From Frigoribacterium sp. CG_9.8 (GTDB lineage Bacteria > Actinomycetota > Actinomycetes > Actinomycetales > Microbacteriaceae), in contig NZ_JADOVH010000004.1 in assembly GCF_015751965.1 (NCBI RefSeq), positions 1 to 64,000 on the forward strand: a DNA stretch of 64,000 bases, given 5' to 3'. This document shows positions 4,506 through 19,371 of the stretch, piece by piece. The notes beneath the pieces are model-generated. The model saw only the letters and a program-made list of their open reading frames with translations, ran no database searches and was not told the origin of the DNA. The position numbers were made by a program, and so were the translations under genes. The first letter of the stretch is position 1; the number at the start of each line of letters is the position of its first letter.

Positions 4506-4565
4506 GCTGAGGCTCCCTTGCTCGGTATCGCCGGCCGGGTAGCGCGCTCGCGCGTATCGACACCG

Positions 4566-4637
4566 CTCCGCCTCCAGGATTCGAACCTGGACCGAACAGC
4601 TCCAAAGGCTGTCGTGCTGCCGTTACACTAAGGCGGA
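4566..4637 (-). tRNA. tRNA-Gln, anticodon TTG
   Basis: Reading the minus strand from 4637, the acceptor TCCGCCT pairs fully with AGGCGGA at the 3' end. A D-arm (GTGT/GCAC), an anticodon stem ACAGC/GCTGT with loop CTTTGGA, and a T-arm with GGTTCGAATCC follow. The anticodon is TTG, which reads CAA (Gln), and discriminator base 73 is G as in Gln tRNAs. The 3' CCA is not encoded. The length is 72 nt, and position next to glmU is a common actinobacterial arrangement. Confidence 0.95.
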
Positions 4638-4755
4638 ATTCGTCGCCGACCCGCATGAAGGCTCGACCGCAACAATTGTGCCAGATGCTCCGCGGCTTCG
4701 TGTCGCCATGCTGCCCCCGCCCGTTCCTGGCGACACCTGCGACGATAATGGGGGA

Positions 4756-5247
4756 ATGCCCACCCACGACGAAGTCGACCGGATCGTCGGCGCGTGGGTG
4801 CGTGAGCGTCCCGATCTCGACTTCGCTCCCCTGCAGGTGCTCTCCCGGGTCGGCCGCCTCGCGAGACACCTCGACCGGGCGCGCCGCACGGCCTTCACTG
4901 CATCAGGACTGGAGTCCTGGGAATTCGATGTGCTCTCGGCCCTTCGCCGTGCGGGATTCCCGTATCAGTTGAGCCCGAAGGCGCTTCTGCAGCAGACCCT
5001 GGTCTCGAGTGGCACCATGACGAATCGAATCGATCGCCTCGTCACACGCTCTCTCGTGGAGCGACACACCGACCCGAACGATGGTCGCGGTATCCTCGTG
5101 ACGATGTCTGCGGATGGTCGTCAGCGTGTTGACACAGCAATCAGCACGCTGCTGGTGTCAGAGAACGAGCTGCTCGACGGACTCTCCGCGGCCGACCAGG
5201 AGCGACTGGCCGGGCTGCTGCGTAAGCTCAGCTTGGATTTCGACTGA
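4756..5247 (+). CDS. MarR-family transcriptional regulator
   Basis: This 163-residue winged-helix regulator has the MarR core: the recognition region LLQQTLVSSGTMTNRIDRL and the wing VERHTDPNDGRGILVTMSADG. The ATG at 4756 is preferred over upstream in-frame codons because it has a GGGGGA ribosome-binding site and begins the conserved N-terminal helices (DEVDRIVGAW). The gene is alone on the plus strand between the tRNA and the convergent transglycosylase, so its target is not shown by context. The ligand is unknown. Confidence 0.88.
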   Translation: MPTHDEVDRIVGAWVRERPDLDFAPLQVLSRVGRLARHLDRARRTAFTASGLESWEFDVLSALRRAGFPYQLSPKALLQQTLVSSGTMTNRIDRLVTRSLVERHTDPNDGRGILVTMSADGRQRVDTAISTLLVSENELLDGLSAADQERLAGLLRKLSLDFD

Positions 5248-5264
5248 GGCTTCAATTAGGAGCG

Positions 5265-6062
5265 CTACGAGTTGGCCACTTTCGCGACATCGTCCACGTA
5301 GCTGTCGAGGTGGTTGTAGGAGAAGACCGCCCGTCGCCAGCCCTCGACACTCGACAGGTCACCCGCGTGGCAGAGGTAGTTCGCGGCGGCGAGAGCAGCA
5401 TCCTCAATCTGATTGGGGTCCGCTCGGCCGTCACCGCTGCCATCCGCACCCCAGATGCGCCAGGTCTGCGGGATAAACTGCAACGGACCGACCGCGTGAT
5501 CCCAGACCGGGTCGCCATCCCACTGCCCTCGATCAGAATCACGGATGCCCGCGAACGCGCTGCCATCGAGCGCGGGACCGACGATCGGCGCGCTCGGGTA
5601 CCCATCCACGCCGAGGACCGCACCGCCGTAACGCCCATCATCCGACTCGATATAGCCGATGGCCGCGAGCGTGTTCCAGCCGAGGTGACACTGCGGTGAT
5701 TTCTCCGCAAGCACGGATGCCGCACCCGCATAGGCGGCGAGTGCGGTCCGCGGAATGCCGGTGCGAGCCGACATCGCGTCGAGCCAGGCCGGGTCGATTC
5801 GTGCGCTGATCGACTGCACGGGCGCAACGGGAAGTGCGGCCTGGGCGGCCGGCTCGGGGGAAACGCCGGGAGCTTTGGCGGGAGCGTCAGCCGACATCTT
5901 CACAAAGTCTGCGGCCGTACCTTGAGGCGCGGCCGCTCCCCGCGGCGCTGCCGATGCTGCCCAGGCTGACCAGCCCCACAGCATCAGCCCGATGACCACC
6001 ACTGCGCAAAGTACGGGAACGACCGCGTGAGTCCGGCGCACCGGTCTGACCGATCCGTCCAT
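5265..6062 (-). CDS. Secreted or membrane-anchored lytic murein transglycosylase (SLT_2 type)
   Basis: At 265 residues it has one N-terminal membrane segment (about 14-36, AVVPVLCAVVVIGLMLWGW), an Ala/Pro-rich linker and a C-terminal lysozyme-like domain. That domain shows the likely catalytic Glu in AAIGYIESDDGRYGG, followed by DHAVGPLQFIPQTW and DGSGDGRADP. It should cleave peptidoglycan glycan strands outside the membrane. ATG at 6062 directly precedes the membrane helix and lies 5 bp after the pstB stop with an AGGA box, so it is co-transcribed with pstB. As the last gene of the phosphate/surface block it may open the wall for the surface proteins encoded upstream (inference). Confidence 0.87.
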   Translation of the reverse strand: MDGSVRPVRRTHAVVPVLCAVVVIGLMLWGWSAWAASAAPRGAAAPQGTAADFVKMSADAPAKAPGVSPEPAAQAALPVAPVQSISARIDPAWLDAMSARTGIPRTALAAYAGAASVLAEKSPQCHLGWNTLAAIGYIESDDGRYGGAVLGVDGYPSAPIVGPALDGSAFAGIRDSDRGQWDGDPVWDHAVGPLQFIPQTWRIWGADGSGDGRADPNQIEDAALAAANYLCHAGDLSSVEGWRRAVFSYNHLDSYVDDVAKVANS

Positions 6063-6067
6063 TCCTG

Positions 6068-6979
6068 CTAGCCGAACCGACCGTGCACATAGTCGAAGGT
6101 GCGGGCGTCGATCGGCTCCGAGAACATCGCCTCGGTGTCGCCGTGCTCGACGATCGCGCCCGGGGTACCCTGCGCGGCGAGAAAGAATGCGCACCGGGTC
6201 GAGACACGCTGAGCCTGCTGCATATTGTGGGTCACAATCACAATTGTCACGTCATTGACAAGCTCGAGCATCGTCTCTTCGATCACACGTGTCGACGTGG
6301 GATCGAGCGCCGAGCACGGCTCATCCATCAGGAGAATGCGCGGTGTCACCGCAAGTGATCGGGCGATGCACAATCGCTGCTGCTGTCCACCGGAGAGTCC
6401 GCCACCCGGCGCGCGAAGACGATCCCGCACTTCTTTCCAGAGTCCCGCCTTGGTGAGGCAACTCTCCACCAAAAAGTCCCGGCGATCGCGGTCGGCTTTG
6501 AGCCCGGTCAGCTTGAGTCCGGCGAGCACGTTGTCGTAAATGGACATCGCCGGAAACGGGTTCGGCTTCTGGAAGACCATTCCGATGCTCTTGCGCGCGT
6601 CGACCAGCTTGCGGTCGGCATCGTAGATGTCCCGGTCGTCGATCAGTACCTCGCCGGCGAGGCTTGCTGACGGCACGAGCTCATGCATACGGTTGAGAAT
6701 GCGGAGGAAGGTGGACTTTCCGCACCCGGACGGCCCGATGAGCGAGGTGATGACGCCAGCCGGCATGGTGAGTGACACCCTGTCGAGCACCTGGTGGTCG
6801 CCAAACCAGGCCGAGATATTGCGCGCTTCGAGCGCGGCCAGCGGTTCGGCCGGGAGCAGCGGCAACGGGAATTCTGGAGTGGGAGCCGAGACTGTGCGCT
6901 TGTCGAACGGGTTGAATCCGGCGATGCCCCGCTTCAACGCGGGAATCACCTGGGTGAGGTCATTACTTCTGATGGTCAT
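6068..6979 (-). CDS. pstB: Phosphate ABC transporter ATP-binding protein
   Basis: PstB powers phosphate import through PstC/PstA. The 303 residues contain Walker A GPSGCGKSTFLRI, the Q-loop GMVFQKPNPFPAM, the signature LSGGQQQRLCIARSLAV and Walker B RILLMDEPCSALDP, all typical of PstB. About 40 extra residues precede the ABC domain compared with most PstB proteins. It is unusual in being separated from pstA by about 8 kb of surface-protein genes on the same strand. A 15-bp tandem duplication including the Shine-Dalgarno-like GAAGAG lies in its leader. Confidence 0.96.
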   Translation of the reverse strand: MTIRSNDLTQVIPALKRGIAGFNPFDKRTVSAPTPEFPLPLLPAEPLAALEARNISAWFGDHQVLDRVSLTMPAGVITSLIGPSGCGKSTFLRILNRMHELVPSASLAGEVLIDDRDIYDADRKLVDARKSIGMVFQKPNPFPAMSIYDNVLAGLKLTGLKADRDRRDFLVESCLTKAGLWKEVRDRLRAPGGGLSGGQQQRLCIARSLAVTPRILLMDEPCSALDPTSTRVIEETMLELVNDVTIVIVTHNMQQAQRVSTRCAFFLAAQGTPGAIVEHGDTEAMFSEPIDARTFDYVHGRFG

Positions 6980-6980
6980 T

Positions 6981-7010
6981 GTGTCTCTTCGGATAGTGAC
7001 TCTTCGGATA
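6981..7010 (-). repeat. Tandem 15-bp duplication in the pstB leader
   Basis: On the minus strand the unit TATCCGAAGAG(T/A)CAC occurs twice with one mismatch, immediately before the pstB start. Both copies carry the purine-rich GAAGAG that serves as ribosome-binding site for the ATG at 6979. Upstream of it (7023-7043) is a small hairpin, stem GGCAGC/GCTGCC with a 9-nt loop. Confidence 0.7.
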
Positions 7011-7062
7011 CCTGGCGATAGAGGCAGCGCTGCTGGGGCTGCCGGAGGGATAACTGCCGCAG

Positions 7063-8043
7063 CTAGAGCAGGTTGGGCAGCAGGATGGTCACCTGGTTAG
7101 CGGTGAACAGGACGGCGAGAAGGGTAACCGGCACAAAGACCACCCAGGTCTTCTGGGCTCCTATGCGCCGAAATGCCCACACGCTCGCGATTTCAGCGAT
7201 GACGAGGAATTGGAGTGCGAATACGAGAGCCCAGATAGTGGATGTGTCGCTGGCCATCGCGAGATCCTGCGGGGGCAGTCCGATGTAGGTGGTCTGCCGC
7301 GCGCCCGCCGGCTTGGCCTGCTGCACGAGCTGAGCATCGACATACGCAAGTCCGGAGGGGATGAAAGCGGGACCGCGCGCGGTGACGAGGGTCAGCCGGC
7401 TCTGGGTAGGGGTCGGCGACACCAGTGTTGGATCCCCTGCGTAGCGCACTCCGATCACCGTGAAGACTTGCTTGCCCTGACCGGTCCGCACAGAAAACTG
7501 GTCACCTGGTGCAAGCTCCTGAATGCGGGCAAACGGTGCTCCGTATGCGGCAGCTCGCCCCATAATCACGCTGATTCCCGCTTGCCCGGGAAGCACTGTA
7601 TCCCGGCGATGCCCCGGTCCAGACTTGAGCGAGTCAGCAGAGGTACCTTCGACGAAGATCTCCTTGATGCCGAGCGAGGGAATTGAGATCACCCCGAGCG
7701 GAGCTCCATCCGGCAGCAGAACATTATTGAAGTCGCCTTCGCTTACCGGGGCCGTGCCCGCTGCGAGCTGTTCACGGTAGGCGTCCGATAACTGTTGCTG
7801 AACGACCAAATGCTGAATCTGGCTCAGCACGGTCACGTTGAGCACAAATGCCAGCAACAGCGCCGCGAATACGATCAACACACTCCGCGCGACTATCTGG
7901 CCGGTGGTCAGCGCTGCACGCAGTATTGGTGCTCGCGGAGGTCGCCGCGGAGCACGGATGGGCTTAGGAATGCGCACCTTCGTCGTGCGAATTCCCGCCG
8001 GCGTGACACGGGCCGCCGCGGGCGGCATCAACTCCGTGGTCAC
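7063..8043 (-). CDS. Sortase-fold membrane protein lacking catalytic residues (pseudo-sortase)
   Basis: The 326 residues have one N-terminal membrane helix (about 51-73), a class D/E-like sortase domain (about 115-240) and two C-terminal helices (about 268-290, 300-325). Sortase landmarks are clear: LGVISIPSLGIKEIFVEGT, the LPGQAGISVIMG strand, YGAPF, and RLTLVTARGP. The catalytic His is Arg163 (GRAAAYGAPF where active enzymes have GH), the Cys is Ala222 (LTLVTA for LTLVTC), and the Arg after it is absent (SGLAYVDA). It should not catalyse transpeptidation. A GTG start at 8043 with an AGGGGGG box overlaps the preceding stop by 4 bp. A scaffolding or binding role is my inference. Confidence 0.85.
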   Translation of the reverse strand: MTTELMPPAAARVTPAGIRTTKVRIPKPIRAPRRPPRAPILRAALTTGQIVARSVLIVFAALLLAFVLNVTVLSQIQHLVVQQQLSDAYREQLAAGTAPVSEGDFNNVLLPDGAPLGVISIPSLGIKEIFVEGTSADSLKSGPGHRRDTVLPGQAGISVIMGRAAAYGAPFARIQELAPGDQFSVRTGQGKQVFTVIGVRYAGDPTLVSPTPTQSRLTLVTARGPAFIPSGLAYVDAQLVQQAKPAGARQTTYIGLPPQDLAMASDTSTIWALVFALQFLVIAEIASVWAFRRIGAQKTWVVFVPVTLLAVLFTANQVTILLPNLL

Positions 8044-8828
8044 AGGACCCCCCTGGCTCGCGCGGCAAGTCGAAGTGCCACGAGGGATTTCCCGAGGAAG
8101 AACGCTCCGACTCCGAAGACACCGATGCCACCGGCCAGCAGCGGTGGGATGAAGACGTACGAGTCGCGGGTAATCGGGGCGAGAGCCACTCCGTCGACCG
8201 TTGTCGGGGGCTTGATGGTGGCGTGGGCTTGCAGTACGGTCCATTGACCCAAACCGCCCAGTCTCGCCGTGACGACGCGGGTCTCATTCGGGCGCAACCC
8301 GTCGATCCGAAAGTTTGCGATCTCGCTGACGGTGTTTCCGAGGCTGGTGTCGATCCAGAACCGTGCTGTGGAGTCGAAGGTGGATTGTGAGACGTTGCGC
8401 AGGGTGATACGAAGTTCGACCACGCTCTCCGCAGGATTGACTGACCACACGTAGTTTGACCTGAGTCCGCTCAGGTAGAGAATCCCGCCAAGATCGGTCT
8501 CCCCGGGCTTCGGGGTTGCAGTCGGGGCCGGCGAGGCGCTCGCGGAGGGCGTTGCGTTCCTGGGCAGACCCGGGCCGGAGGACAGCGGTGTTCCCGGTGC
8601 GGGATTGGACCCGGTCGCGGGCTCGGATACGCCACCGGGAATCGAGACGCATCCCGAGCCCGGCTCATTCGTCGGAGTGTTCGCGTCGGGTGACCCGACG
8701 GTAATCGTGAGCACCGTTGAACTGCACCCCTCTGCCGAGGCCGGGGATGCACAGGCGACGCCACCGGCAACGCCCAGCGCAGTGAGCAGCATCAGCGAGG
8801 CGGCGACACGCCCTCTATCCCAGTGCAT
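8040..8828 (-). CDS. Secreted beta-rich protein with C-terminal membrane anchor, unknown function
   Basis: At 262 residues it has a signal peptide (cleavage expected near SPASAEG), a Pro/Ser/Thr-rich linker, a beta-rich domain resembling an Ig-like fold (VVELRITLRNVSQSTF to VTARLGGLGQWTV) and a C-terminal membrane helix (LLAGGIGVFGVGAFFLG) followed by basic residues. I do not recognise a named family. The domain and layout resemble the DUF916 protein encoded just before it. ATG at 8828 lies 4 bp after that gene's stop and the 3' end overlaps the pseudo-sortase, so the three are one transcription unit. Confidence 0.75.
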   Translation of the reverse strand: MHWDRGRVAASLMLLTALGVAGGVACASPASAEGCSSTVLTITVGSPDANTPTNEPGSGCVSIPGGVSEPATGSNPAPGTPLSSGPGLPRNATPSASASPAPTATPKPGETDLGGILYLSGLRSNYVWSVNPAESVVELRITLRNVSQSTFDSTARFWIDTSLGNTVSEIANFRIDGLRPNETRVVTARLGGLGQWTVLQAHATIKPPTTVDGVALAPITRDSYVFIPPLLAGGIGVFGVGAFFLGKSLVALRLAARARGVL

Positions 8829-8832
8829 CACG

Positions 8833-9954
8833 CTAGCGCTTCGTGTCCGTAGACGGGGCAGGTGACGCATCGCTTGCGGTCACCGCGCCAGCACCGACGA
8901 GATCCTGCTCCGTGGTGCCGTACTTCAGCTTCGCCTCCGCCTCCATCTGCGCGATCCAGGCTGCGGCATTCGTGTCGTCACGTCGGCGCCTCAACACCAG
9001 GAACAGCCACACGGACGCAGCGATCAGGATGAGACCTATCAGCCACCACGGCGGAACAATCAGGGTGGTGTCACGATCGATCTGTCGAAACTGCCCCGGG
9101 TTGAGAGCATCCTTGTCGACGGTGGGGATGAGGTGGACGTAGGGGTTCAGGTAGCCGAGTTGAGCCACGCCGGAGACGGTCATTGTCACGACGCGAGTAG
9201 CTCCCGGCAGAAGCTCTTCGATCGAGGTGTGTTGGGGTTCGGTCACGCCGATACCCAGGAAGGTGTTCACTCCGACCACTGCGTTTGCGGCGAGGGCGAC
9301 GTTGCCGCTGTTTTTCACCGTGAAGACCAGAGACGTAGTGCCGGCGAACGGATTCAACTGGCTCTGGTAGCTCGCCGCGATGTTTCCAATGGTGAGCGCG
9401 GCCTGTATCGCTCCGGAGACCCGAACGTACACCCGGGTTGCGACGCGCCGATCGACGATCACCTGGCCACTTGGCGACTTGACCGAGATGACGATGCCAG
9501 CGGCATGGTCCCCGGGAGATGCATCCGCCGGAACATTCACCGTGAAGCGGATGATCTGAGTCGCTCCGGCCGCAAGCGGCAGTGAGAGTTGCTTTGCACC
9601 GGCGGCAAATGACACCCACGAGCCTCCCCCGGTCGGGGCGACACCGGTGTCGAGAAGGCCGTAACCCCCGTCGGGCGTGTTGAAAGCATCGGTGGCGAAA
9701 ACAGTCATAACCTGGGCGCTCGTGCCGGTATTGCGCACCTCGTATTCGTCGACCACCTGTTGGCCTGGCGCCACCTGGTAGCTGAATCGAGACCGCCCAT
9801 CGGCGCCGGTCTCACTCGCGGGCCCCCCAGAAATCCCGTCGGTATCAGCGGCGTGGGCAGCGGAGACTGCCGCTCCGGTGGCAAGGAACACAGTGGCGAG
9901 TGCCAGTGCGAGCGCGCGAGAGAAGGGGCGGGAGACTTTCAGATGTTCGAACAC
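8833..9954 (-). CDS. DUF916 (WxL-interacting protein-like) membrane-anchored surface protein
   Basis: The N-terminal half has the DUF916 hallmarks: FSYQVAPGQQVVDEYEVRNT at about 57-76, an aromatic/glycine-rich loop and RFTVNVPADASPGDHAAGIV at about 136-154. A second beta domain follows (NPFAGTTSLVFTVKNSGN), then one C-terminal helix (about 303-320) and a charged cytoplasmic tail. In Firmicutes, DUF916 proteins bind peptidoglycan and partner WxL proteins. The start is uncertain. The GTG at 9954 is used because it opens a good signal peptide (ALALALATVFLATGAAVSAAHA), but no clear ribosome-binding site is seen. A strong terminator separates it from the WxL gene. Confidence 0.83.
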   Translation of the reverse strand: MFEHLKVSRPFSRALALALATVFLATGAAVSAAHAADTDGISGGPASETGADGRSRFSYQVAPGQQVVDEYEVRNTGTSAQVMTVFATDAFNTPDGGYGLLDTGVAPTGGGSWVSFAAGAKQLSLPLAAGATQIIRFTVNVPADASPGDHAAGIVISVKSPSGQVIVDRRVATRVYVRVSGAIQAALTIGNIAASYQSQLNPFAGTTSLVFTVKNSGNVALAANAVVGVNTFLGIGVTEPQHTSIEELLPGATRVVTMTVSGVAQLGYLNPYVHLIPTVDKDALNPGQFRQIDRDTTLIVPPWWLIGLILIAASVWLFLVLRRRRDDTNAAAWIAQMEAEAKLKYGTTEQDLVGAGAVTASDASPAPSTDTKR

Positions 9955-9992
9955 ACTGTAGTTAGCCAAACCGAGTTTGCGCAGAGGCTGCG

Positions 9993-10014
9993 TGTAGTTG
10001 AACGCCAACTTAAC
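9993..10014 (-). promoter_or_regulatory. Weak candidate PHO-box-like direct repeat before the DUF916 gene
   Basis: On the minus strand two adjacent 11-bp units, GTTAAGTTGGC and GTTCAACTACA, share the GTT(C/A)A beginning of actinobacterial PhoP half-sites. The rest of each unit matches poorly. The 155-bp gap 9955-10110 must hold the promoter of the DUF916-pseudo-sortase-pstB unit if the upstream terminator works. Confidence 0.25.
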
Positions 10015-10110
10015 GGAATGCAGGCAATTGGATTTGACACGGCCACCCGATGGGACCCTACGATCTGACCACTGCGCCGCGACCGGTGTCGAACGAGAGG
10101 GTATTAACCT

Positions 10111-10153
10111 CAAAAAGAGGGAGGGATCGCACCTGAGTGCGATCCCTCCCTCT
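10111..10153 (-). terminator. Strong intrinsic terminator after the WxL gene
   Basis: A perfect 17-bp stem (10116-10132 with 10137-10153) closes on a CTGA tetraloop. On the minus strand it is followed by TTTTTG, the layout of a rho-independent terminator for the WxL gene transcript. It splits the phosphate/surface block into at least two transcription units. Confidence 0.92.
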
Positions 10154-10180
10154 GTGCTTTTTACTGTTGTAGCTGCAGTG

Positions 10181-11248
10181 TTACTTCGACGCCAGGGTGA
10201 TCGTGAGCGTCGAGGTGTAGGTGCCAACCGCGGCAGACGCCGGAGCGACGAATGTCAGGTCGGCGCCAAGCACGGTTGTTCCGACGGTCGCGTAGTTGAC
10301 AGCGGATGCGAACGTCGATGGGTAGGTTGCCGAACCAGCGACCTGGGTTGTTCCCACGACCGCGCCAGCCCCGTTACCCGTAACGACCTTCGGGACCATT
10401 CCCAACTGAGCCTTGCTGATGGTGTTGCTACCGCTGACGAAGTCGGCAACGGTGCTGGTGAGGGTCCAGCCCGGGTGGGACACAATGCGGTCATCCTGCA
10501 CCGAGAAGTTACCGAGCGTCGCAGTTGAAGTCGACAGCTTGGTCACGGAGTTGAGCACAGCGGTACCGAAGGTGGTGGTTGCGCTCGATGGCGAGACCAG
10601 GTTGAGCGCACCATCAACGGCCTGAGCCGTCGTCACCGACATGCCCTGGTTGAACGAGCCACTCGGGGGAGCAGGAGCGACATAGGGCGTCGGAGTAACG
10701 AAGGTCCAGTCTCCCGTTGAGGCGGTGACGCGGATCTGCGTGAAGCTCGTGTAGCCCGCGATGATGGTCACACCCGCGTTCTTCGTGAATGCGATGCCCA
10801 AGCTGTAGTCGCCGCCAGCGTTCTTCACGCCGGTGATGTTCCCGCTGATTTGGGCGTTCAAGGACATTGACGGGAGCCAGGTGTTCTTGGTTCCAGAAAC
10901 AAAGCCGGTCTGGTTGTAGGCCGACCAGCTGCTCTTCGTGTTTTCCGATCCGAGCGGCGCTACGAACGTGAATACGCCCGTCGCGTCGGAGGGTCCGATG
11001 AAGAGCTCGTTTGTCCCGGTGACCGAACCGGATGAGCCCGCTGGGTTGGGTGATGCGACTACGGAGGTTGCGAAGTTCAGGGTGGACCCCGCAGTTTTGA
11101 CACTGTTGTCATCGGGGTTCACGAGGTAAACAGGCTGGTTGCCACCGTTGGTCTCGGTTGCCGAGGCACCCGTCAGAGTTGCTCCGACGATCGTTGCGGC
11201 GAGGGCGCCGACGAGGCCGACGTACACCAACTTATTGATTTTCATCAT
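10181..11248 (-). CDS. WxL-domain-like secreted surface protein
   Basis: The 355 residues start with a signal peptide (GLVGALAATIVGATLTGASA). The C-terminal half (about 215-355) reads as a WxL domain: GNFSVQDDRIVSHPGWTLTS with W261-T-L, then the beta-rich stretch to VGTYTSTLTITLAS. The second Trp-x-Leu expected near the end is replaced by Ile-Thr-Leu. WxL proteins of Firmicutes attach non-covalently to peptidoglycan. The N-terminal half is unassigned. An AAAGG box precedes ATG 11248. The gene lies 40 bp after a PstS-like gene and before a strong terminator, so the two form a pair. Confidence 0.75.
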   Translation of the reverse strand: MMKINKLVYVGLVGALAATIVGATLTGASATETNGGNQPVYLVNPDDNSVKTAGSTLNFATSVVASPNPAGSSGSVTGTNELFIGPSDATGVFTFVAPLGSENTKSSWSAYNQTGFVSGTKNTWLPSMSLNAQISGNITGVKNAGGDYSLGIAFTKNAGVTIIAGYTSFTQIRVTASTGDWTFVTPTPYVAPAPPSGSFNQGMSVTTAQAVDGALNLVSPSSATTTFGTAVLNSVTKLSTSTATLGNFSVQDDRIVSHPGWTLTSTVADFVSGSNTISKAQLGMVPKVVTGNGAGAVVGTTQVAGSATYPSTFASAVNYATVGTTVLGADLTFVAPASAAVGTYTSTLTITLASK

Positions 11249-11288
11249 TACTTGAGCCTTTCAGTCGTTACAGAAAGCTAGGGGTGAT

Positions 11289-12386
11289 TTAGAGGGTCGC
11301 GTACGCGCGCTGCGCGACGTTCGTGGAGGGGGCGAGGAAGCCGAACTTCTTCTTCACCGCTCCCGACGTGGCCGCCCCAGAGCCGAAGCTGGTCAAGCTG
11401 GTCGCCCCGGAGCCGGTCGGATTGACCAACGCGGCCAAGACCGCGTCATAGGCTGGGTTGGTGGAGTCGACGCGGTTGTATTCGACGACGAGGTAGGTGT
11501 CCCGACCGAACGTGGTGTCAGAGTAGAAAGCAGAGTTCGGAACGAGTGACGGTGCAGTGCCCGTGAACGGGACCGTACCGGTGATGGGAGTTCCGAGCGC
11601 GGCAGTTGCACTGGTGGTGGTGTTCACCGCGGTCACGCCATTCGCCTGAGCAACCCAATTCGCAGCGGAGAACGGGATGATATCGCCAGCTACAAGCTGC
11701 GTTGCATCGTTCTCGGGGGTGACATTTCCCACGTCAGAAACGGCCGGAGCGGAAGTGCCACCACCCACGCCAATCGCAGTCAGGAAGAATTTGCGGGTTC
11801 CCGAAGCGGTCTGGGGCAGGCGCGGGCGGACCGCGACTCCGTCGATCGTCGTGAGCGTTCCGTTGTAGATCTGCGTGAGCTGGGCAGCGGTGATGTTCGC
11901 CCAAGCTGCGGTTCCGCCCTTGTAGGCGTAGGAAACAGCATCGCGAGCGTAAGGAACGTACACGAGCTTGCCAGCGGCGTCGGCGCTGGTGCCCGGTCCG
12001 CTGGACGAGCGGGCGATATCCACCTGGTCGCTGATGTTCACGCCACTAAGGAGGTTGCCGGTGATCGAGGCGCGAAGCGCGGTGACCCCCGCGCCAGAAC
12101 CGGACGGACGGGTGAAGAATGGTCCACCCGTCTTCGTCTGAATCACTGCCGAGCCAAAAGCATCGAACGAACCGATGGTCGCGGCGCCACTGGTGACAAC
12201 CCGCACGGTCGATGCCGTGACGCCTGTGCCGTTGAGAAGAGCGTTGGAAGAGTCCTGCAGTGTGTCGGAACCAACCAACACATAGCTGTTTGAAACGGGC
12301 TCGGCGGACGCCGGGCTTATGAATGCGATGCCAGCGATGGCAACGCCGATGACCGTGCTCAGAGCGACGACCTTCTTCATCTTCAT
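11289..12386 (-). CDS. PstS-like secreted substrate-binding protein
   Basis: This 365-residue protein has a signal peptide (VVALSTVIGVAIAGIAFISPASA) and no lipobox or membrane anchor. PstS-like features are YVLVGSDTLQD at the mature N-terminus, the oxyanion loop PSGSGAGVTAL, DIARSSSGP, YVPYARDAVSYAY and ITAAQLTQIYNGT. These correspond to the ligand-binding loops of phosphate-binding proteins, but the loops differ enough from the PstS encoded upstream that the ligand could differ. Start ATG 12386 has an AAAGGA box. The 114-bp gap before it (12387-12500) is the likely promoter of this gene and the WxL gene; I see no clear boxes there. Confidence 0.82.
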   Translation of the reverse strand: MKMKKVVALSTVIGVAIAGIAFISPASAEPVSNSYVLVGSDTLQDSSNALLNGTGVTASTVRVVTSGAATIGSFDAFGSAVIQTKTGGPFFTRPSGSGAGVTALRASITGNLLSGVNISDQVDIARSSSGPGTSADAAGKLVYVPYARDAVSYAYKGGTAAWANITAAQLTQIYNGTLTTIDGVAVRPRLPQTASGTRKFFLTAIGVGGGTSAPAVSDVGNVTPENDATQLVAGDIIPFSAANWVAQANGVTAVNTTTSATAALGTPITGTVPFTGTAPSLVPNSAFYSDTTFGRDTYLVVEYNRVDSTNPAYDAVLAALVNPTGSGATSLTSFGSGAATSGAVKKKFGFLAPSTNVAQRAYATL

Positions 12387-12500
12387 TGTGATTCATTCCT
12401 TTTTTGGTGGGGGTTATCGGGTGGTTGCAGATGCGACCGCTCGGCTTGGCGCCAGCGCGTCAGAGACAAAACGCGCGGGCATGATCCAAGAATGTGGGCG

Positions 12501-15050
12501 TCACAGGCGTCGCCTGATCCGCGAGATTATCGGGACGAGAAGGGCACTCAGAATGCCAGCGAACAGGCTGAGCGGGATCGTCGAGCCGAGGCTGCCGATC
12601 CGAGGATCAGCAGGGGTAGCGTTGCCGGCGAGCGCCGCAACCGGATTCCCGGCGGCCTTCGGATCTACCGCAGCGCCGGGAGGGGTCACAGTAGAGCCGC
12701 TTCCGGCTGACGAGGTAACCCCAGCTGAGGTCGCGGCGGAACCAGCCAGTGGCTCGGGCGATTTCACGCCATCGGAAATTACGGGCACTCCCGCCTGGAT
12801 CTTCTCCGCGGCCGCAAGCGCCTGCTCGCGCCATCCGGTCGGCAGCGGAGCGTAGCCGTCCGGGAGCTGCCCGATTTCGGCGCCTGGTACCTGACCGACC
12901 GACGCCGCGTATCGGATGAAGTCGGCGTAGCTCGTTCTGAGTGTCGCATCACCCATCGCGGGACTCACCGCCGCATAAATCGGCATGGTGAGGGGATACG
13001 CCGTTGGCGCGCCCTTCGCCGCCGAAGACGTCGGGTCGAACCCATAAACGCTGCTCGCAGTTTTCGACACCGTCATCGCTGCAGCCCCGGCACTGAGGGT
13101 CGCGGTGGACGGCGCAATGTATGCGCCCGTGGGGTTGAGTAACGATGCGGTGACGACCTGGTATCGGGCGGCGGACGCGGTGTCGGTCAGCCCGAGCACC
13201 CGCTGCAGCCCGGGAAGACTCCGAGTGGTCTTGGTGTACTTCGCCGGCACTGCGAGCGAATCCCACCCGCCGAGCACCTGCCCGTCGCCACGCAATGTTC
13301 GGTAGGCACTCGAATCGAGGTCATTGACGAACGGACGCCAGGTCACTGAGCTAATCGGGGCCACCGATCCGTCGGCGGGCTGCTCCACCGGATCCGCCTT
13401 CGGGAAGTCCGATCGCGGCACCTCTAGTGCAACTCCGGCCGGGTTAACCGTGGCGTTCGTCGAACTCCACGGGTTGACGATCATGCCCCACTTATCCGGG
13501 GTACCCGCGAGCCAGGCTGCCGCGGCAGCGTCGGTCGCGATGTAATTCCATAGTGTTGTTGCCGCGTCTGACCTCCCCTGTGGCACGAGGAGATCGGAGA
13601 GCGACGGGCTGACCAACGCCTGGTTAGCCCAGTCGGGGTTGATGGCGAGAAAGTCCGGGTCCAGTGTGATGTTCCGGGGGTTGCGTCCCGGATCCTTCGC
13701 GCTGATGTAATTGAGCTTCGACCGGTCGGCTCCGTAGGGAAGCGAATCGATATAGGAGCTGGTCAGCAGTTTTGCGACCAGCCTCGGCGTGAGCTTCATC
13801 TCGGTGAATGACGTACGAGCCCGTGCGAGGTCGTCTGCCGAGGCCCCTCCCGCAGCACTGGGCTCCCGGTCAACAGCGAAGCCGATCGCAAGTCCGCTGA
13901 CTGCAATCGGGGCATAGGCCAGCGAATCGGTGACCCCAGCCGAGACGATCAGAGGCAGCGATGTCAGCGCCATCGGCGCCGCGACAGCCCTGTTCGCATT
14001 CATCGCAGCATCCGACTCGCTTCCAGTAAGGATCGAGTAGATCGACCCGCCCTGCGCATTGCAGAGAGTCGGCTGCCAGGAGCCGACGGCGCCCGCTACC
14101 AATTCGCTCCCCGCGATCTGGCGCTCGGCGGCTCCGACAGCGCAGCGCAGGCCAATGGGCCGAAAGTCGAGCTTGACTGCGAGGCGATGCTTCCAGGAGT
14201 CGAAGAAGAGGCCGGACTGGGTGATCTTCGCGTCACCGCCATCCGCGGTGCCGCGAGGGATGATGACGAGCCAGCATGGAGCACCGGTGACTGTGCCATC
14301 CGACGCCGTTACCGGAGCCCCGCAGCCCAGGCCAGGCGATTGCACTGCGGTCTGCATCTCGAACTTCGTCGATCCCGAGCCGGTGGCGCTCGAGCCGGCC
14401 CAGCTCACCTCGTTCGACGTGTTTTGGGTGAAAAACTGGTTGGTGTTGACGTTGACGCTCTCCACCTGTTTGTTGTTCACGACGGATGCGACGACCTCGC
14501 GCTTTCCGTCATCGCCGACGGTCGCCGAGGTGAATGGAATGGAGGTGTACGGTCCGTTGAACGGGCCGGTCGCAGGGGCGGTGTATTGGGCGTCTTCCGG
14601 TGCGACCACCTCGGCAGATGCGCGAGAGCTGTCGCGCTTCGCGCCGGGAGTGAGGAAGGCGCCGTACTGGCAGGTCGTCCGGTCGGGCTGACCGGGGTTT
14701 TCTGGGTCGTCCCCGCCACACTGGGCGATCTGCAGAAAGTTCTCGCCACCGGTCTGGCCCGAGGGGGTCGTGGACTTCTTGCCACCGGTCCAACTGACCA
14801 CGATGCCCTGAGAGATGAGGTTCCTCGTCTGTGAGACCGTCACCGACAGACCGGGAAGAGGGGCGCTGGCGGAATATGCGTCGTGTGCCGCGGTGGTCAC
14901 GGTCACCGCTGATGACATGTCGGCGCTCGCCGGAGCGGCGAACGCACCACCGACGATGCTCGCGGTTCCCATCAAAACCGCGACGAGGCATCCGGTCACG
15001 ACGGAGGTCGCCCAGGTGTTTCGCGTTCGAATTCGCGGGGTGGAATGCAC
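12501..15050 (-). CDS. Very large secreted, C-terminally anchored protein with PstS-like portion
   Basis: The 849 residues have a long signal peptide (TSVVTGCLVAVLMGTASIVGGAFA), several Cys pairs in the first third (IAQCGGDD, RTTCQYG, LGCGAP, APCWLV), a middle resembling a substrate-binding fold (APIAVSGLAIGF, LVAKLLTSSYIDSL), a Ser/Gly/Ala-rich linker and a C-terminal helix (LSLFAGILSALLVPII) with a RIRRRL tail. No LPXTG motif precedes the helix. GTG 15050 is preferred because TTGGAG lies 6 bp upstream; a TTG at 15062 is possible. It follows pstS in the block, so a role in phosphate capture at the surface is inferred. I cannot name a family. Confidence 0.78.
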   Translation of the reverse strand: MHSTPRIRTRNTWATSVVTGCLVAVLMGTASIVGGAFAAPASADMSSAVTVTTAAHDAYSASAPLPGLSVTVSQTRNLISQGIVVSWTGGKKSTTPSGQTGGENFLQIAQCGGDDPENPGQPDRTTCQYGAFLTPGAKRDSSRASAEVVAPEDAQYTAPATGPFNGPYTSIPFTSATVGDDGKREVVASVVNNKQVESVNVNTNQFFTQNTSNEVSWAGSSATGSGSTKFEMQTAVQSPGLGCGAPVTASDGTVTGAPCWLVIIPRGTADGGDAKITQSGLFFDSWKHRLAVKLDFRPIGLRCAVGAAERQIAGSELVAGAVGSWQPTLCNAQGGSIYSILTGSESDAAMNANRAVAAPMALTSLPLIVSAGVTDSLAYAPIAVSGLAIGFAVDREPSAAGGASADDLARARTSFTEMKLTPRLVAKLLTSSYIDSLPYGADRSKLNYISAKDPGRNPRNITLDPDFLAINPDWANQALVSPSLSDLLVPQGRSDAATTLWNYIATDAAAAAWLAGTPDKWGMIVNPWSSTNATVNPAGVALEVPRSDFPKADPVEQPADGSVAPISSVTWRPFVNDLDSSAYRTLRGDGQVLGGWDSLAVPAKYTKTTRSLPGLQRVLGLTDTASAARYQVVTASLLNPTGAYIAPSTATLSAGAAAMTVSKTASSVYGFDPTSSAAKGAPTAYPLTMPIYAAVSPAMGDATLRTSYADFIRYAASVGQVPGAEIGQLPDGYAPLPTGWREQALAAAEKIQAGVPVISDGVKSPEPLAGSAATSAGVTSSAGSGSTVTPPGAAVDPKAAGNPVAALAGNATPADPRIGSLGSTIPLSLFAGILSALLVPIISRIRRRL

Positions 15051-15170
15051 TGCAGGCTCCAAGCTGATATCCGGAGATGCCCGGAGGGGATGATCAGAAA
15101 TTATTGGCCGTTGGTAGCCGGATGGTGAACGGATCGAGTACTACCGTTCCCGCATAAACGTCGCACTGGG

Positions 15171-15245
15171 GTGAGCGATCGGGGGTGAGCGATCGGGGCT
15201 GAGCGATCGGGGCTCAGCGATCGGGGCTCAGCGATCGGGGCTCAG
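15171..15245. repeat. Five 14-bp tandem repeats with GCGATCG cores after pstS
   Basis: GATC cores lie at 15177, 15191, 15205, 15219 and 15233, an exact 14-bp period, within units of the form GAGCGATCGGGG(G/C)T. The array sits in the 223-bp gap (15051-15273) between pstS and the next gene. The partly palindromic CGATCG core could serve as repeated protein-binding sites or form structure in RNA. No conventional terminator was found in the gap. Confidence 0.88.
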
Positions 15246-15273
15246 AACGACCGCGCGATGGATTGCCGAACTC

Positions 15274-16860
15274 TCAGCGCTTGAGGCGCCGGGACAGCAG
15301 CGGCGGCAACAGGATCACAAGCACCAGAAGCAGCCCGGCGGCCAGCATGATCGCCTGTGACCCACCGAACTCGGAACTCGCAAGAGTGAACGGCGTCGAG
15401 ACAGCGTTTGCCCGCGAGGTCGACCCGCCACTCACCAGCGCTCCATTTGCGTCGTAAACCGGGGTGTCACCGGTGGTCGCGGCAGTACCGACTGTCCCCG
15501 CCCCCGCGGCATCTGCTCCGGGAGTTTGGGCCGCTCCGGATGCGCTCCCTCCCGTTCCGGACCCGGTGACCGCCGTGCTGACCCCGGCAGCGCCGGCGGT
15601 GCCGGTGGTGCACTGGTTCGGGCCCTTCTGGTCACATGCTGCCGGTTGCGGAGCAGAGGATGCGAGCTTGTTGCTCCCCGGGTTTGCCGGATCGAAAGTC
15701 GGGTTATTGCACTTGGACAGGTCACCGCTCGTGGCTACGGATCCCGGTATGCGCGCAATCTGCTGGAAACCCGCGGTCACGAGGTTGAGCGGAAGGGGCG
15801 AATACCCCAGAGCAGCGGCCTGTTGCTGACCTTCGCACAGCATGTAGCTTGCGAAGGTACTGAGAGTGACGCCCTTCTTCGCCGTAAAGATACCGGCGAC
15901 AGCGGTCGGCACGATCATGTAGGAGTAGCTCGAGAGTGGATACGTGCGCTTGTCGGGGTTGCTGTAGACACCGTCCAGAATCTGGGTGAGGTCGGTCGGG
16001 TTGATCGCCGCCTGCAGCAGCGCCACCGCAACGGACGGAGCCGTCGGTTCGATGTAGTAGCCAGCGGCGTTGAGCACTTTGGCCACCGGAAAGCCCGACT
16101 TGAGCGCATAGGAGTACTCGACGTAGGTGATGGCTCCCTCGCCGTAGTTCTGACTCACGTAACCGGCGACCCCGAGGGATCCGCTCTGCGCCTTCGCCGA
16201 TCCTTTCACCGGGTACTGCGAGGTGAGCCCGGACCGGCCAGAAAAGGCACTCCACAATGCCGGGTACTGCTTTGACATCCACAGGGTGAACTGCGCGGTC
16301 GAGCCGGATCCATCGGAGCGCACCACCGGCACGATCGGCTTATTGGGCATCGCGAGGCCCGGGTTGTCGGCCTGAATCAACGGGTCGTTCCAGTTCGTGA
16401 TCGTGTTGGTGAAGATCTTCGTGATCGTCTCGCCTCCGAGCCGGAGGTTCGACACTTGCTTTCCCCCGATTTTGAGGTTGTACATGAACGAGGTGCCACC
16501 GGCCACGATCGGCATATAGGCGTACCCGTTTGCCGGCTTTTCCGGAGCGGATCCGTCCTCTGGGGCGCTCTGAAACGGGATCTCGCTCACGGCAAAGTCG
16601 ACGGTGCCGCCGATGAAGTCCTTCCGCCCGGCCGACGAACCGGTACCCGAGTAGTTGACCGTCATGCCGTAGTTCGAGGCGACGTTGCGTCGCCACTGGT
16701 CGAGCGCGTTCTGCGACCAGGTCGATCCCGTTCCGCTGATCGGGGTGTAGGTCGTGGCGGCCTCGGCCGCCTGGCCGGTACCGGTCGTGGCGGCCCCGGC
16801 GAAGATCGTGACCGCGAACAGGATGCTGATGAGACGGATGAGTCGGGTGCGCGGCGTCAC
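15274..16860 (-). CDS. pstS: Phosphate ABC transporter substrate-binding protein, membrane-anchored
   Basis: PstS binds phosphate outside the membrane for PstCA. The 528 residues begin with a signal peptide (ending near GQAAEA). The phosphate-binding loops ISGTGSTWSQNALDQW, NYSGTGSSAGRKDFIGG, VAGGTSFMYNL and RSDGSGSTAQFTLW are all intact. A beta-barrel-free Gly/Ala/Thr-rich linker of about 90 residues and a C-terminal helix (IMLAAGLLLVLVILLPPLL) with SRRLKR replace the usual lipoprotein anchor. The GTG start overlaps the pstA stop (GTGA), so translation is coupled. Confidence 0.95.
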   Translation of the reverse strand: MTPRTRLIRLISILFAVTIFAGAATTGTGQAAEAATTYTPISGTGSTWSQNALDQWRRNVASNYGMTVNYSGTGSSAGRKDFIGGTVDFAVSEIPFQSAPEDGSAPEKPANGYAYMPIVAGGTSFMYNLKIGGKQVSNLRLGGETITKIFTNTITNWNDPLIQADNPGLAMPNKPIVPVVRSDGSGSTAQFTLWMSKQYPALWSAFSGRSGLTSQYPVKGSAKAQSGSLGVAGYVSQNYGEGAITYVEYSYALKSGFPVAKVLNAAGYYIEPTAPSVAVALLQAAINPTDLTQILDGVYSNPDKRTYPLSSYSYMIVPTAVAGIFTAKKGVTLSTFASYMLCEGQQQAAALGYSPLPLNLVTAGFQQIARIPGSVATSGDLSKCNNPTFDPANPGSNKLASSAPQPAACDQKGPNQCTTGTAGAAGVSTAVTGSGTGGSASGAAQTPGADAAGAGTVGTAATTGDTPVYDANGALVSGGSTSRANAVSTPFTLASSEFGGSQAIMLAAGLLLVLVILLPPLLSRRLKR

Positions 16861-18239
16861 GGTGACGTCTCCTCGGGGTGTGGCGGATCAATGGCGGGGA
16901 AAAGTTGGGTACCTTCGGGCGGTTCAGAACTCTCACGGTGCTCCGCAGCGTTTTCCGGGGCGGGCGGAGTGGCGATGACAGTGGCGGCAACAGGAGTCGT
17001 GACGTTCGTCAATCGCGCCATCCGCTTCAGATCGTCTGCGGACTGGCCAGCAACGCGACGGCGCTGGCGGTCGGTGAGTTGCCCGGGGCCACGCCCGCCG
17101 AACACCCGGGCGATCGTGAACAGGGTGAGCACGAGAAGCAGTAGCACCGCCGCCGTGCCGAAGCCACGGGCGATCATGTTCGGTTCTGGCGACTTGACGA
17201 AGTCGAACACCTGGAGTGGTAGCGAGATCATCGGGCCAGAGAAGGGGTTGACATTGAGCACCGAGGTGATCCCCGAGGTGAGGAGAACCGGGGAGGTCTC
17301 TCCGATCCCCCGCGCGGTGCCGAGAATGACGGCCGTCACGAGTCCGGACCGAGCAGTGGGAAGCACCACATGCCACACCGTGCTCCAGCGAGTTGAACCG
17401 AGCGCGTACGACGCCTCCCGCAGGTTTCCGGGCACGAGCCTCAGCACGACATCCGATGCCCGGATCACGATCGGAAGCATCATCACCGTGATCGCCATTG
17501 CCGCAGCGAAGCCCGACCGCTGATGGGTGATCAGCTGGATGATGGCCGCGTAGACGAACAGTCCGGCGACAATCGACGGGAGAGCCGTCATTGCGTCCGC
17601 GATCGTGCGAACGAACCGGGCGAACCGGCCGCCGATCTCGTTGAGGAAGACCGCTGTCGTGATTCCGAGTGGAATCGTGATGGCCAAAGCGATGCTGATC
17701 TGAATCAGTGAGCCGACAATCGCATGAAAGATTCCGCCAACCGACAGCGGGTCGAGCGGGCCGGCGAGCTGCATCGTCTCGGTGAAGAAATTGAGATTCG
17801 GCAGCGCATCTTTACCCCGGATGAGCGCAAACGCGACCACGAACACCAGCGCGCTGAACAGGATGATGCCCGCGCTCACCAGCAGGGCGGTCATGATCCG
17901 ATCCTTCACCTCCTGTGCATCGGAGCGAAGAGAGACGAGCAGGATGTAGAACCCGATAAACGACAGGAAGGCGACGACGACCCATCCGACAATCCCGGTC
18001 AGCGGGGTGAACCAGCCGAACAGCAAAGCGGTGAGGGCGATGGATGCGACCGCGGCACCGAACAGATTGAACTTCTCGTCGAGAGTGGCCTTACGCAGGT
18101 TGCGTCGGGGGCCGGTCTCGACTCCCTCGACCGAGGGAATGCTCGTCGCGAGACCGCTCAAGTCGTCAGGTTCATCCGGAGCGTCGACCTCGCCCCCCAC
18201 GCGCGGGTGGAGTGTCGTCTCGTCAGAAATGATCGACAT
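16857..18239 (-). CDS. pstA: Phosphate ABC transporter permease PstA
   Basis: This is the second inner-membrane subunit of the phosphate importer. The 460 residues are longer than usual. A charged N-terminal stretch of about 70 residues precedes extra membrane helices, the core permease includes the EAA-like loop (YALGSTRWSTVWHVVLPTARSG), and a cytoplasmic C-terminal tail of about 70 residues is rich in Pro/Ala/Glu. It starts with ATG 18239, 3 bp after pstC, and its stop overlaps the pstS start. Confidence 0.95.
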   Translation of the reverse strand: MSIISDETTLHPRVGGEVDAPDEPDDLSGLATSIPSVEGVETGPRRNLRKATLDEKFNLFGAAVASIALTALLFGWFTPLTGIVGWVVVAFLSFIGFYILLVSLRSDAQEVKDRIMTALLVSAGIILFSALVFVVAFALIRGKDALPNLNFFTETMQLAGPLDPLSVGGIFHAIVGSLIQISIALAITIPLGITTAVFLNEIGGRFARFVRTIADAMTALPSIVAGLFVYAAIIQLITHQRSGFAAAMAITVMMLPIVIRASDVVLRLVPGNLREASYALGSTRWSTVWHVVLPTARSGLVTAVILGTARGIGETSPVLLTSGITSVLNVNPFSGPMISLPLQVFDFVKSPEPNMIARGFGTAAVLLLLVLTLFTIARVFGGRGPGQLTDRQRRRVAGQSADDLKRMARLTNVTTPVAATVIATPPAPENAAEHRESSEPPEGTQLFPAIDPPHPEETSP

Positions 18240-18242
18240 GCG

Positions 18243-19232
18243 CTACCCGGTCTCGGCGCCGGAGCGCGATCGTGCGACGATTGACGACGCGGTGAAGTTC
18301 ACGGCCAGGGTGATCAGAAACAGTACGAGGCCCGCCGCCATGAGCGCTGACAGGCCGAAATCGCTCGCTTCTCCATAGCGAAGAGCGATCAGGGCAGAGA
18401 CCGAATTGGTTCCCGTCTTCAACACCTGCCAGTTGATCGTAAAGATCGGCGAAATGATCATGTACACCGCGATCGTCTCTCCGAGCGCACGACCAAGGCC
18501 GAGCATGGTGCCACCGATGATCCCGCCCTTCCCGAACGGGATGACCACTGTGCGGATCATTCCCCACCGGGTAGAGCCGAGCGCAAGAGCACCTTCGCGC
18601 TCTCCAATCGGTGCCTGTGAAAACGCTTCTTGCATCACGGAGGTCTGGGTCGGCACAACCATCAGCCCGACGACGATGCCGGCGATGAACGCGGATGAGG
18701 TGAATGCACTCGCTTCCGAGAGGGGAAGCCCCGCTGCATCCGATACCCGAAGGAACGGGATCCACCCGAAGTAGGTCGAGATCCATTGAGCGACCGGGAT
18801 GACATTGGCCTGGAGGAAAAACAATCCCCAGAGTCCGTACACCACACTCGGCACCGCAGCCATCAGGTCGACAAGCGAGACCAGCGCCGACCGGAGGCGG
18901 CCGGTGACGACCTCGGAGATCAGCAGTGCGGTTCCGAGTGCGAGTGGCACAGCCACGCCCATCGCAACGATCGCAACGTTGAAGGTGCCGAAGAGAATGG
19001 CAGCTATCCCGAACACGTGGGTTTCCGGTGACCACTGCTGTTCAACCAGGAAGGAGAATTCAGAGACCTTCAGGGCATCACTTGCCCGAATGGACAGGAA
19101 TAGACCGACGGCGAGCATGATGCCGACCGTCGTGGCACCTGCGGTGAGGGTCACCGCCGTGAATGCAGAATCGGACCGCGATGGAGCAGACACGAGCGAG
19201 CGTCTGACCGGCGGTGCGTCAGTACGGGTCAC
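18243..19232 (-). CDS. pstC: Phosphate ABC transporter permease PstC
   Basis: PstC is the first inner-membrane subunit of the phosphate importer. At 329 residues it has about six helices and the permease coupling loop ALALGSTRWGMIRTVVIPFG. GTG 19232 is chosen because a strong GAGGAGGA box lies 5 bp upstream. The codons further upstream do not look coding. It is the first gene of the pst block, and the candidate PHO box is about 63 bp upstream of the start. Confidence 0.95.
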   Translation of the reverse strand: MTRTDAPPVRRSLVSAPSRSDSAFTAVTLTAGATTVGIMLAVGLFLSIRASDALKVSEFSFLVEQQWSPETHVFGIAAILFGTFNVAIVAMGVAVPLALGTALLISEVVTGRLRSALVSLVDLMAAVPSVVYGLWGLFFLQANVIPVAQWISTYFGWIPFLRVSDAAGLPLSEASAFTSSAFIAGIVVGLMVVPTQTSVMQEAFSQAPIGEREGALALGSTRWGMIRTVVIPFGKGGIIGGTMLGLGRALGETIAVYMIISPIFTINWQVLKTGTNSVSALIALRYGEASDFGLSALMAAGLVLFLITLAVNFTASSIVARSRSGAETG

Positions 19233-19294
19233 GTTCGTCCTCCTCTCAGCCCGACACAGCGATTCGCAGCTGCTGTTGCGCTGATCATCAGTCC

Positions 19295-19327
19295 CCCACA
19301 TGAACGGAACAAATCTGCCGTGTGAAG
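19295..19327 (-). promoter_or_regulatory. Candidate PHO box upstream of pstC
   Basis: On the minus strand CTTCACACGGC and GTTCATGTGGG lie exactly 22 bp apart with a degenerate 11-bp unit between them. Actinobacterial PhoP sites are 11-bp direct repeats beginning GTTCA. The phase and position, about 63 bp before the pstC start, fit a PhoP-controlled promoter. Confidence 0.5.
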
Positions 19328-19371
19328 TGGATCTGGACGGCGAGTGAGCCGCAACTCTCTAAATTTTTCGG

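Follow-up and report, generated by a model that had tools for sequence, protein, structure and literature searches.

Known phosphate-uptake and surface systems

In the usual scheme, a Pst system takes up phosphate with a single binding protein and a single pump. The locus considered here contains a second set of pst genes, interrupted by genes for surface proteins. It lies in a window of 64,000 nucleotides from Frigoribacterium sp. CG_9.8 (positions 1 to 64,000 of contig NZ_JADOVH010000004.1, assembly GCF_015751965.1), and it is read on the minus strand from position 19232 down to 5265 in the order pstC, pstA, pstS, G (giant protein), P (secreted PstS-like protein), W (WxL-like protein), D (DUF916/WxLIP-like protein), d (second membrane-anchored protein), T (pseudo-sortase), pstB and a transglycosylase-like gene; in the gene strings below, C, A, S and B stand for the pst genes. 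With moderate confidence, the locus can be read as a putative Pho-regulated accessory phosphate importer with a dedicated surface assembly of its own. The genes from pstC to pstB are, on the minus strand:

18243..19232, minus strand: pstC, GTG start with GGAGG; TIGR02138 236.8 bits, cut-off 196.45 (NCBIfam), passed
16857..18239, minus strand: pstA; TIGR00974 218.2 bits, cut-off 193.45 (NCBIfam), passed
15274..16860, minus strand: pstS; TIGR00975 212.8 bits, cut-off 205 (NCBIfam equivalog), passed
12501..15062, minus strand: G, giant of 853 residues with a signal segment, an N-terminal part whose fold is unassigned, a degenerate PstS-like part and a C-terminal membrane segment; start uncertain
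11289..12386, minus strand: P, secreted PstS-like protein of 365 residues
10181..11248, minus strand: W, secreted WxL-like protein
8833..9954, minus strand: D, DUF916/WxLIP-like protein with a C-terminal membrane segment (hydropathy); start uncertain
8040..8870, minus strand: d, second membrane-anchored protein, resembling D in locus L022
7063..8043, minus strand: T, pseudo-sortase with the Sortase domain PF04203; start about 8043
6068..6979, minus strand: pstB; TIGR00972 328.2 bits, cut-off 343.2; best of 192 families

PstB thus scores just below its curated cut-off and is still top among the 192 families. The gene content and its place on one strand, as given in a preliminary description of this DNA, were confirmed, and so was the separation of about 8 kb noted there between pstS and pstB: pstB starts 8.3 kb past the end of pstS, and the contiguous arrangement pstS-pstC-pstA-pstB is not found here.

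Four described systems come closest. The locus resembles canonical PstSCAB (PMC7866108) in having PstC, PstA, PstB and a PstS with PstS loops, and in its PHO-type control. It differs in the order C-A-S, followed by 8.3 kb of surface genes and then B, in a PstS with a C-terminal membrane segment and without lipobox, in the addition of a giant, a second PstS-like protein and a pseudo-sortase, and in its coexistence with an ordinary copy. The review, which deals with Streptomyces and related Actinobacteria, never uses the word "sortase" in its main text (PMC7866108). With the WxL/WxLIP clusters (Csc) of Firmicutes (PMC10599100, PMC9772566), the locus shares a secreted WxL-like protein adjoining a DUF916/WxLIP-like protein with a membrane segment. 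WxLIP has been proposed to bind WxL and peptidoglycan (PMC10599100), and Firmicutes account for over 91% of known WxL sequences (PMC9772566). Csc comprises a small and a large WxL protein with a dual W-x-L motif, whereas the locus usually has one WxL-like protein, one of its motifs lacking the Trp, carries no LPxTG in the nine proteins checked, is tied to pst genes and occurs in Actinomycetota. T is like the class E sortases (S. coelicolor SrtE1, PMC5148588) in its sortase domain, recognized by sequence profile, and in having a membrane segment, but its His and Cys are replaced in 65 of 65 scorable rows and it has two extra C-terminal membrane segments. Finally, M. tuberculosis PstS1 (PDB 7dm1, 1pc3) is the best solved match of the C-terminal part of the giant; the giant differs from it by its long N-terminal part, by inserts, by its C-terminal membrane segment and by the lack of the standard phosphate loops.

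Taken together, the pump is of a known kind, while the surface assembly with a pseudo-sortase appears new. No described system of this form was found among the open-licence papers listed by the searches, in agreement with the preliminary description, which knew of none in actinobacteria; one could be in print elsewhere.

Conservation of the gene set

Of 60 close relatives, 11 carry G, with one of the 11 lying outside Microbacteriaceae. G was also found in 55 of 249 Microbacteriaceae (E below 1e-50) and, among 396 genomes of the phylum, in 5 outside the family (E 2.9e-75 or better). The last two counts are lower bounds, the best 3 (family scan) or 2 (phylum scan) candidates per genome having been scored. 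The G-bearing relatives named in one scan were Lacisediminihabitans, Microbacterium and a Micrococcales assembly, with 6 loci.

The surroundings of G were read in 72 loci with per-gene profiles, which had been derived from some of these loci themselves. Matches were counted at 40 bits or more (300 bits or more for pstB), and L019 was left out of all profiles. As the loci were selected by G, a T without G could not appear in the set. The commonest gene strings were C-A-S-G-P-W-D-d-T-B (25 loci), C-A-S-G-P-T-B (13), C-A-S-G-P-W-D-T-B (9), P-G-C-A-S-T-B (5) and C-A-S-G-P-W (3), and 14 others occurred 2 times or once each. Both G and pstB are held by 64 of the 72 loci, the remaining eight stopping at contig ends. 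In these 64 complete loci, T was present in 64, directly before pstB in 62, and P was present in 62; C-A-S stood in this order in 62, the two exceptions (L031 and L083) starting at a contig end. Rearrangements were also seen. Outside the class, two genomes of a single genus (L120, L121) have the string C-A-S-G-T-B with P-W-D following pstB, and the five P-G-C-A-S-T-B loci (L114-L118) have a transglycosylase match after pstB, with a weaker kinase match in three of them. The order between pstS and pstB, whose conservation the preliminary description had proposed to check, is thus conserved in different genera and also in some genomes from beyond the family.

The core of the system is formed by the Pst proteins (PstCAS and PstB) and by G, P and T. 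WxL/DUF916 is considered an addition, because T occurs in 64 and P in 62 of the 64 complete loci, but W or D in only 44. WxL/DUF916 as part of the core was rejected on the 20 of 64 complete loci where neither was found; it is an option. The view that the genes are chance neighbours was rejected as well, given the presence of T in every complete locus and its position directly before pstB in all but two.

The pseudo-sortase

The domain of T matches Sortase PF04203 (E 8e-15), and PDB sortases were also matched by profile; in NCBIfam, the best match was class E sortase, below its cut-off. The catalytic columns were scored in 65 rows, two rows with gaps having been set aside. The column of the catalytic His holds R in 64 rows and K in 1, and that of the catalytic Cys holds A in 57, S in 3, G in 3 and T in 2. 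Concerning the catalytic Arg, the position 12 past the Cys column is R in 33 rows, Y in 26 and H in 6. Because His is replaced by Arg or Lys, and Cys by Ala, Ser, Gly or Thr, in all 65 scorable rows, T is classed from its sequence as a pseudo-sortase, and a working sortase was rejected on the same replacements.

Other residues of T are well kept: H145, R147, R163, R200, D204 and D236 (window numbering) are common to twelve aligned members, and their columns are conserved in 62-65 of the 65 rows. Hydropathy indicates one N-terminal and two C-terminal membrane segments. The protein ends in LPNLL, and L-P-N-L-L or a close form of it is present in 14 rows. A search of T against 72,556 plasmid records gave two weak partial matches only, on which the idea of plasmid cargo was rejected.

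Relatives of the phosphate-binding protein

Three proteins of the locus are PstS or PstS-like. The locus PstS itself has no Cys within its first 40 residues, and it has a long linker and a C-terminal membrane segment at 497-526 (hydropathy). Its phosphate-binding loops are kept, RSDGSG in 65-70 of 70 scorable rows and the other loops likewise. In the tail ahead of the membrane segment, a Pro is conserved in 13 aligned rows, within A-V-S-x-P-x-T-L in the nearer ones.

The giant gave no Pfam match. The resemblance of its C-terminal part to PstS comes from a weak match to TIGR00975 (NCBIfam), from the comparison of the G family profile with PDB, where M. tuberculosis PstS1 (E 1e-10) was the best solved match of that part, and from the comparison of the profile with the PstS of the same locus (318 columns, E 1.6e-6, probability 90). 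In the phylum sample, the weak matches of the G profile fell nearly all on the PstS-like part, genome G280 giving also one at positions 283-416. The standard PstS phosphate loops are not kept in the sequence-only loop alignment, G-S-E and S-D standing in their place; 34 of 72 rows have an R where PstS has RSDGSG. A PstS-type phosphate binder was ruled out for G on the loss of these loops. Residues other than those of the loops are conserved, e.g. the R and K of the segment R-L-x-A-K-L-L-T in 71 of 71 letters. By these profile relationships the giant is a PstS derivative, a kinship that the preliminary description did not see when it rightly called it an anchored protein with respect to its C-terminal membrane segment.

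P matched PBP_like_2 in 6 of 13 alignment rows, the copy of the window being without match, and its best PDB match reached only E 0.045. The 13 rows include a badly cut one (L024, an Ig-like part), which was excluded from the P profile used for reading the loci. The loop set of P is GSDT (67 of 67 rows), SGT (67 of 67), RPxGS and ARSSS, unlike that of PstS. This difference is what would favour import of an organophosphate or of an oxyanion other than phosphate, an explanation that seems highly improbable: the PstS of the locus has retained the loops of its family and scores above the PstS equivalog cut-off, and the control boxes described below are of the phosphate type.

A second Pst system beside the ordinary one

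The same genome carries an ordinary pstSCAB at 227.8-231.5 kb of its contig C4, with a PstS that has a lipobox. Among the 55 G-bearing genomes of the 249 family genomes, the number of pstC genes equals one plus the number of G loci in 50, the five exceptions being G230, G205, G135, G146 and G189. In two of these, G146 and G189, the only pieces of G are at contig edges and were counted as G. The 194 family genomes without G have one pstC in 177 cases, two in 11 and none in 6; as the best 9 candidates per genome were scored, absences are not certain.

A tree of 30 accessory PstC proteins (out of 68) and 21 ordinary ones separated both kinds by one branch with a support of 100/100. Each of the PstC, PstA, PstB and PstS proteins of the window scores higher with all the accessory copies compared, including those of other classes, than with the ordinary copy of its own genome. 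Across 21 genomes, the accessory and ordinary PstC distances correlate with r 0.40, a value reached by 1 of 2000 permutations, which fits a partly vertical descent, presumably with losses or transfers. The picture of a phosphate importer given in the preliminary description holds for its pst genes, but it missed this ordinary pstSCAB and the PASTA kinase gene located just outside the block.

By eye only, the open reading frames ahead of the ordinary pstSCAB (L124, 224000-236000 of contig C4) look like ppk and a Nudix gene. The sequence GTTAACC-N4-GTTAACC stands before the ordinary pstS.

Phosphate-type control elements and putative transcription units

The PHO box of coelicolor is known, the box being described as two 11-base repeats (PMC4415409). 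The elements found in the locus of the window are:

19299..19327, minus strand: PHO-type repeat before pstC, with TTCAC and TTCAT units 22 bp apart; L020 has the same spacing
15100..15130, minus strand: element before the giant, with GTTCACC at 15130-15124 and AATAAT at 15105-15100
10116..10153, minus strand: hairpin after W, 17 perfect pairs, with TTTTGAGG next in the minus direction; terminator- or processing-like
9997..10014, minus strand: PHO-type box before D, GTTAAGTTGGCGTTCAAC, a strict 11-bp repeat

Upstream of pstC, 7-mers were counted in 68 loci without preselection of a motif. Among those present in at least 12 loci, the most enriched were TGTTCAC (22 loci, 3.4 expected), TTCACCT (14, 3.1 expected) and GTTCACC (29, 6.9 expected). 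Tandems with at least 12 of 14 matches were found in 8, 10 and 6 of the 68 loci at periods 11, 22 and 33, respectively, whereas eight further periods gave 0 to 2 loci. The reverse strand had none at 11, 22 or 33, and one locus each at 23 and 24. Repeats of the TTCAY type, 22 or 11 bases apart, were present in 12 of the 68 loci (shuffles: mean 0.135, maximum 3).

The strict repeat GTTNA-N6-GTTNA was found upstream of C in 7 of 68 loci, in the S-G gap in 5 of 66 (that of the window not being among them) and in the W-D gap in 12 of 38. In the control gaps it was absent (G-P 0/60, P-W 0/39, T-B 0/59, P-T 0/13), and the reverse strand gave none. At other periods there were no occurrences, except upstream of C (1 at period 13, 2 at period 14) and in G-P (one at period 22). 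Relaxed tandems (11 of 14) at period 11 occurred in 17 of 38 W-D gaps and in 22 of 66 S-G gaps, other periods giving 0 to 4, save 22, with 7 in W-D and 3 in S-G; for S-G, the range over all other periods examined was 1-3. PHO-type 11-bp repeats are found, in a minority of the loci, ahead of C, G and D. General promoter and terminator scans gave counts at the level of shuffled sequence; of their hits, those at 15129-15100 and at 10116-10153 were retained for the analysis, the latter being listed on the plus strand.

A strong hairpin (stem score of at least 20, within 110 bases) follows W in 34 of 44 loci and other genes in 0 to 5 of 41-46. The hairpins trailing W in different loci differ in sequence while keeping their place. 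Because of this hairpin and of the internal PHO-type boxes, we infer from the sequence three units that are probably phosphate-controlled, C-A-S, G-P-W and D-d-T-B. The same two features speak against the single transcript of the operon proposed in the preliminary description, and on them a single long operon was rejected.

Boxes that precede C, G and D separately, together with a strong hairpin after W, need no single complex, and they would also suit a co-regulated cluster without a joint machine, in which the surface proteins would be Pho-regulon adhesins or wall proteins sharing a starvation switch with a second Pst importer. The optional character of W and D points in the same direction. 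This explanation seems nevertheless rather unlikely, as none of the 64 complete loci lacks T, which immediately precedes pstB in 62 of them, and as G derives from PstS itself.

A conserved stretch resembling AATGTACTGTG was seen close before D in W-D gaps, e.g. those of L021, L067 and L071; it is perhaps a -10 element behind the PHO-type box.

Optional surface proteins and the PASTA kinase

The Pfam WxL domain was matched by W in 3 of 14 rows, the copy of the window being without match; four rows (L023, L025, L027 and L034) may start too late. One W-x-L motif is kept and the other is without its Trp. As a rule there is one WxL protein per locus, a second match to W being present in L074, L084, L085 and L087. 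D matched WxLIP_PGBD (DUF916) in 12 of 12 rows, with a best E of 2.3e-8, the copy of the window being under the Pfam cut-off; against PDB, it had no match up to E 1. No LPxTG motif was found in the nine proteins of the window locus that were checked. Two further genes flank the block:

5265..6062, minus strand: lytic transglycosylase-like protein, SLT_2 E 2e-8; optional neighbour
19372..21366, minus strand: Ser/Thr kinase with two PASTA domains, upstream of pstC; Pkinase E 1.5e-30, PASTA E 3.7e-13; start uncertain

The transglycosylase, earlier regarded as the end of the block, does stand after pstB in the window, but just 16 of the 72 loci have a transglycosylase match, which may lie at either end of the block. 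Among the 49 loci that contain W or D, 27 have a kinase gene of this kind immediately upstream of pstC and 4 have one after pstB. The 23 loci without W or D gave no kinase match of comparable similarity; three of them (of the P-G-C-A-S-T-B type) have a weaker one downstream. Further PASTA genes are present in the genome of the window.

These neighbours bear on two other explanations. In one of them, the assembly would bind phosphate-bearing wall material, the transglycosylase and the PASTA kinase providing a link to wall turnover. The proposed binding of WxL and DUF916 domains to peptidoglycan (PMC10599100), the PASTA kinase beside 31 of 49 W/D loci and the SLT_2 protein after pstB in the window are in accordance with such a device. 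It is quite unlikely, in view of the scarcity of transglycosylase matches (16 of 72 loci), of the 20 of 64 complete loci with neither W nor D, and of the scanned proteins of the window locus, in which no phosphatase, phosphodiesterase or polymer hydrolase domain save SLT_2 was found.

In the other one, the second Pst with G and T would be a sensor instead of a pump, informing the PASTA kinase or the Pho system about external phosphate. Pst complexes take part in phosphate signalling, and a kinase adjoins many loci, both of which are compatible with a sensor. We consider it unlikely, since PstB, PstC and PstA are full-length and conserved, and the loci without W or D lack an adjacent kinase of comparable similarity, apart from the weaker matches mentioned.

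Proposed function of the locus

The accessory phosphate importer with its own surface assembly might operate as follows. Under phosphate shortage, the cell would make the device on top of its ordinary Pst system. PstS, tethered through its linker and C-terminal membrane segment instead of a lipid, would bind phosphate outside the membrane, as the secreted P would likewise do. The giant, devoid of the standard loops, could be a scaffold or docking partner. T, a predicted membrane protein with its dead sortase domain outside, would keep the partners at PstCAB, and W and D, where present, would tie the assembly to peptidoglycan. Phosphate would then pass from the assembly to PstCAB. The preliminary description had also proposed a surface phosphate assembly. 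That reading gains from the PHO-type boxes present before surface genes as well as before pstC, but the place it gave to WxL and DUF916 proteins does not hold, neither being found in 20 of 64 complete loci.

Some observations weigh against this interpretation. The repeat before pstC in the window is weak, with 10 of 14 matches to the GTTCACC tandem, and in the pooled test any box was found in only 24 of 68 loci. The G-P control gap is not clean: it contains GTTCACC in 6 of 60 loci (1.4 expected), relaxed tandems in 4 at period 11 and in 6 at period 22, and one strict repeat at 22. The ligand of P could be other than phosphate. Moreover, related loci are not independent, and each was counted separately; the giants of L032 and L033, and likewise those of L071 and L072, are more than 90% identical to each other.

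A more specific idea, which we put forward only tentatively as a possibility, is that T, with the sortase fold but without its chemistry, grips the C-terminal tails of the membrane-anchored partners and so captures binding proteins at PstCAB, where they would otherwise diffuse. G and P would carry the zone of capture further across the wall, and W and D would fix it to peptidoglycan. If true, a dead sortase acting as a mechanical part of an importer would represent a new architecture of nutrient uptake in single-membrane bacteria and would give a function to a pseudo-sortase family.

Compared with the usual scheme of Pst, the second system described here adds three near-constant proteins (G, P and T), besides optional ones that may number up to three or more, and one of the constant components has an enzyme fold without its active site. 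The gene set, with the ordinary pstSCAB available for comparison in the same cell, offers a way to study the working of binding proteins within a thick wall and the role of a pseudo-sortase.

Other features of the window

A tRNA gene at 4566-4637 (minus strand), just downstream of the locus, was the sole Rfam match in 4400-21500. At 28752-30871 (minus strand), a histidine kinase and an OmpR-type response regulator adjoin a molybdopterin oxidoreductase gene; the best NCBIfam matches of the pair are PhoR and MtrA, both under their cut-offs. At 42830-44893 (minus strand), a gene encodes a protein that combines a subtilase domain with a pro-kumamolisin activation domain.

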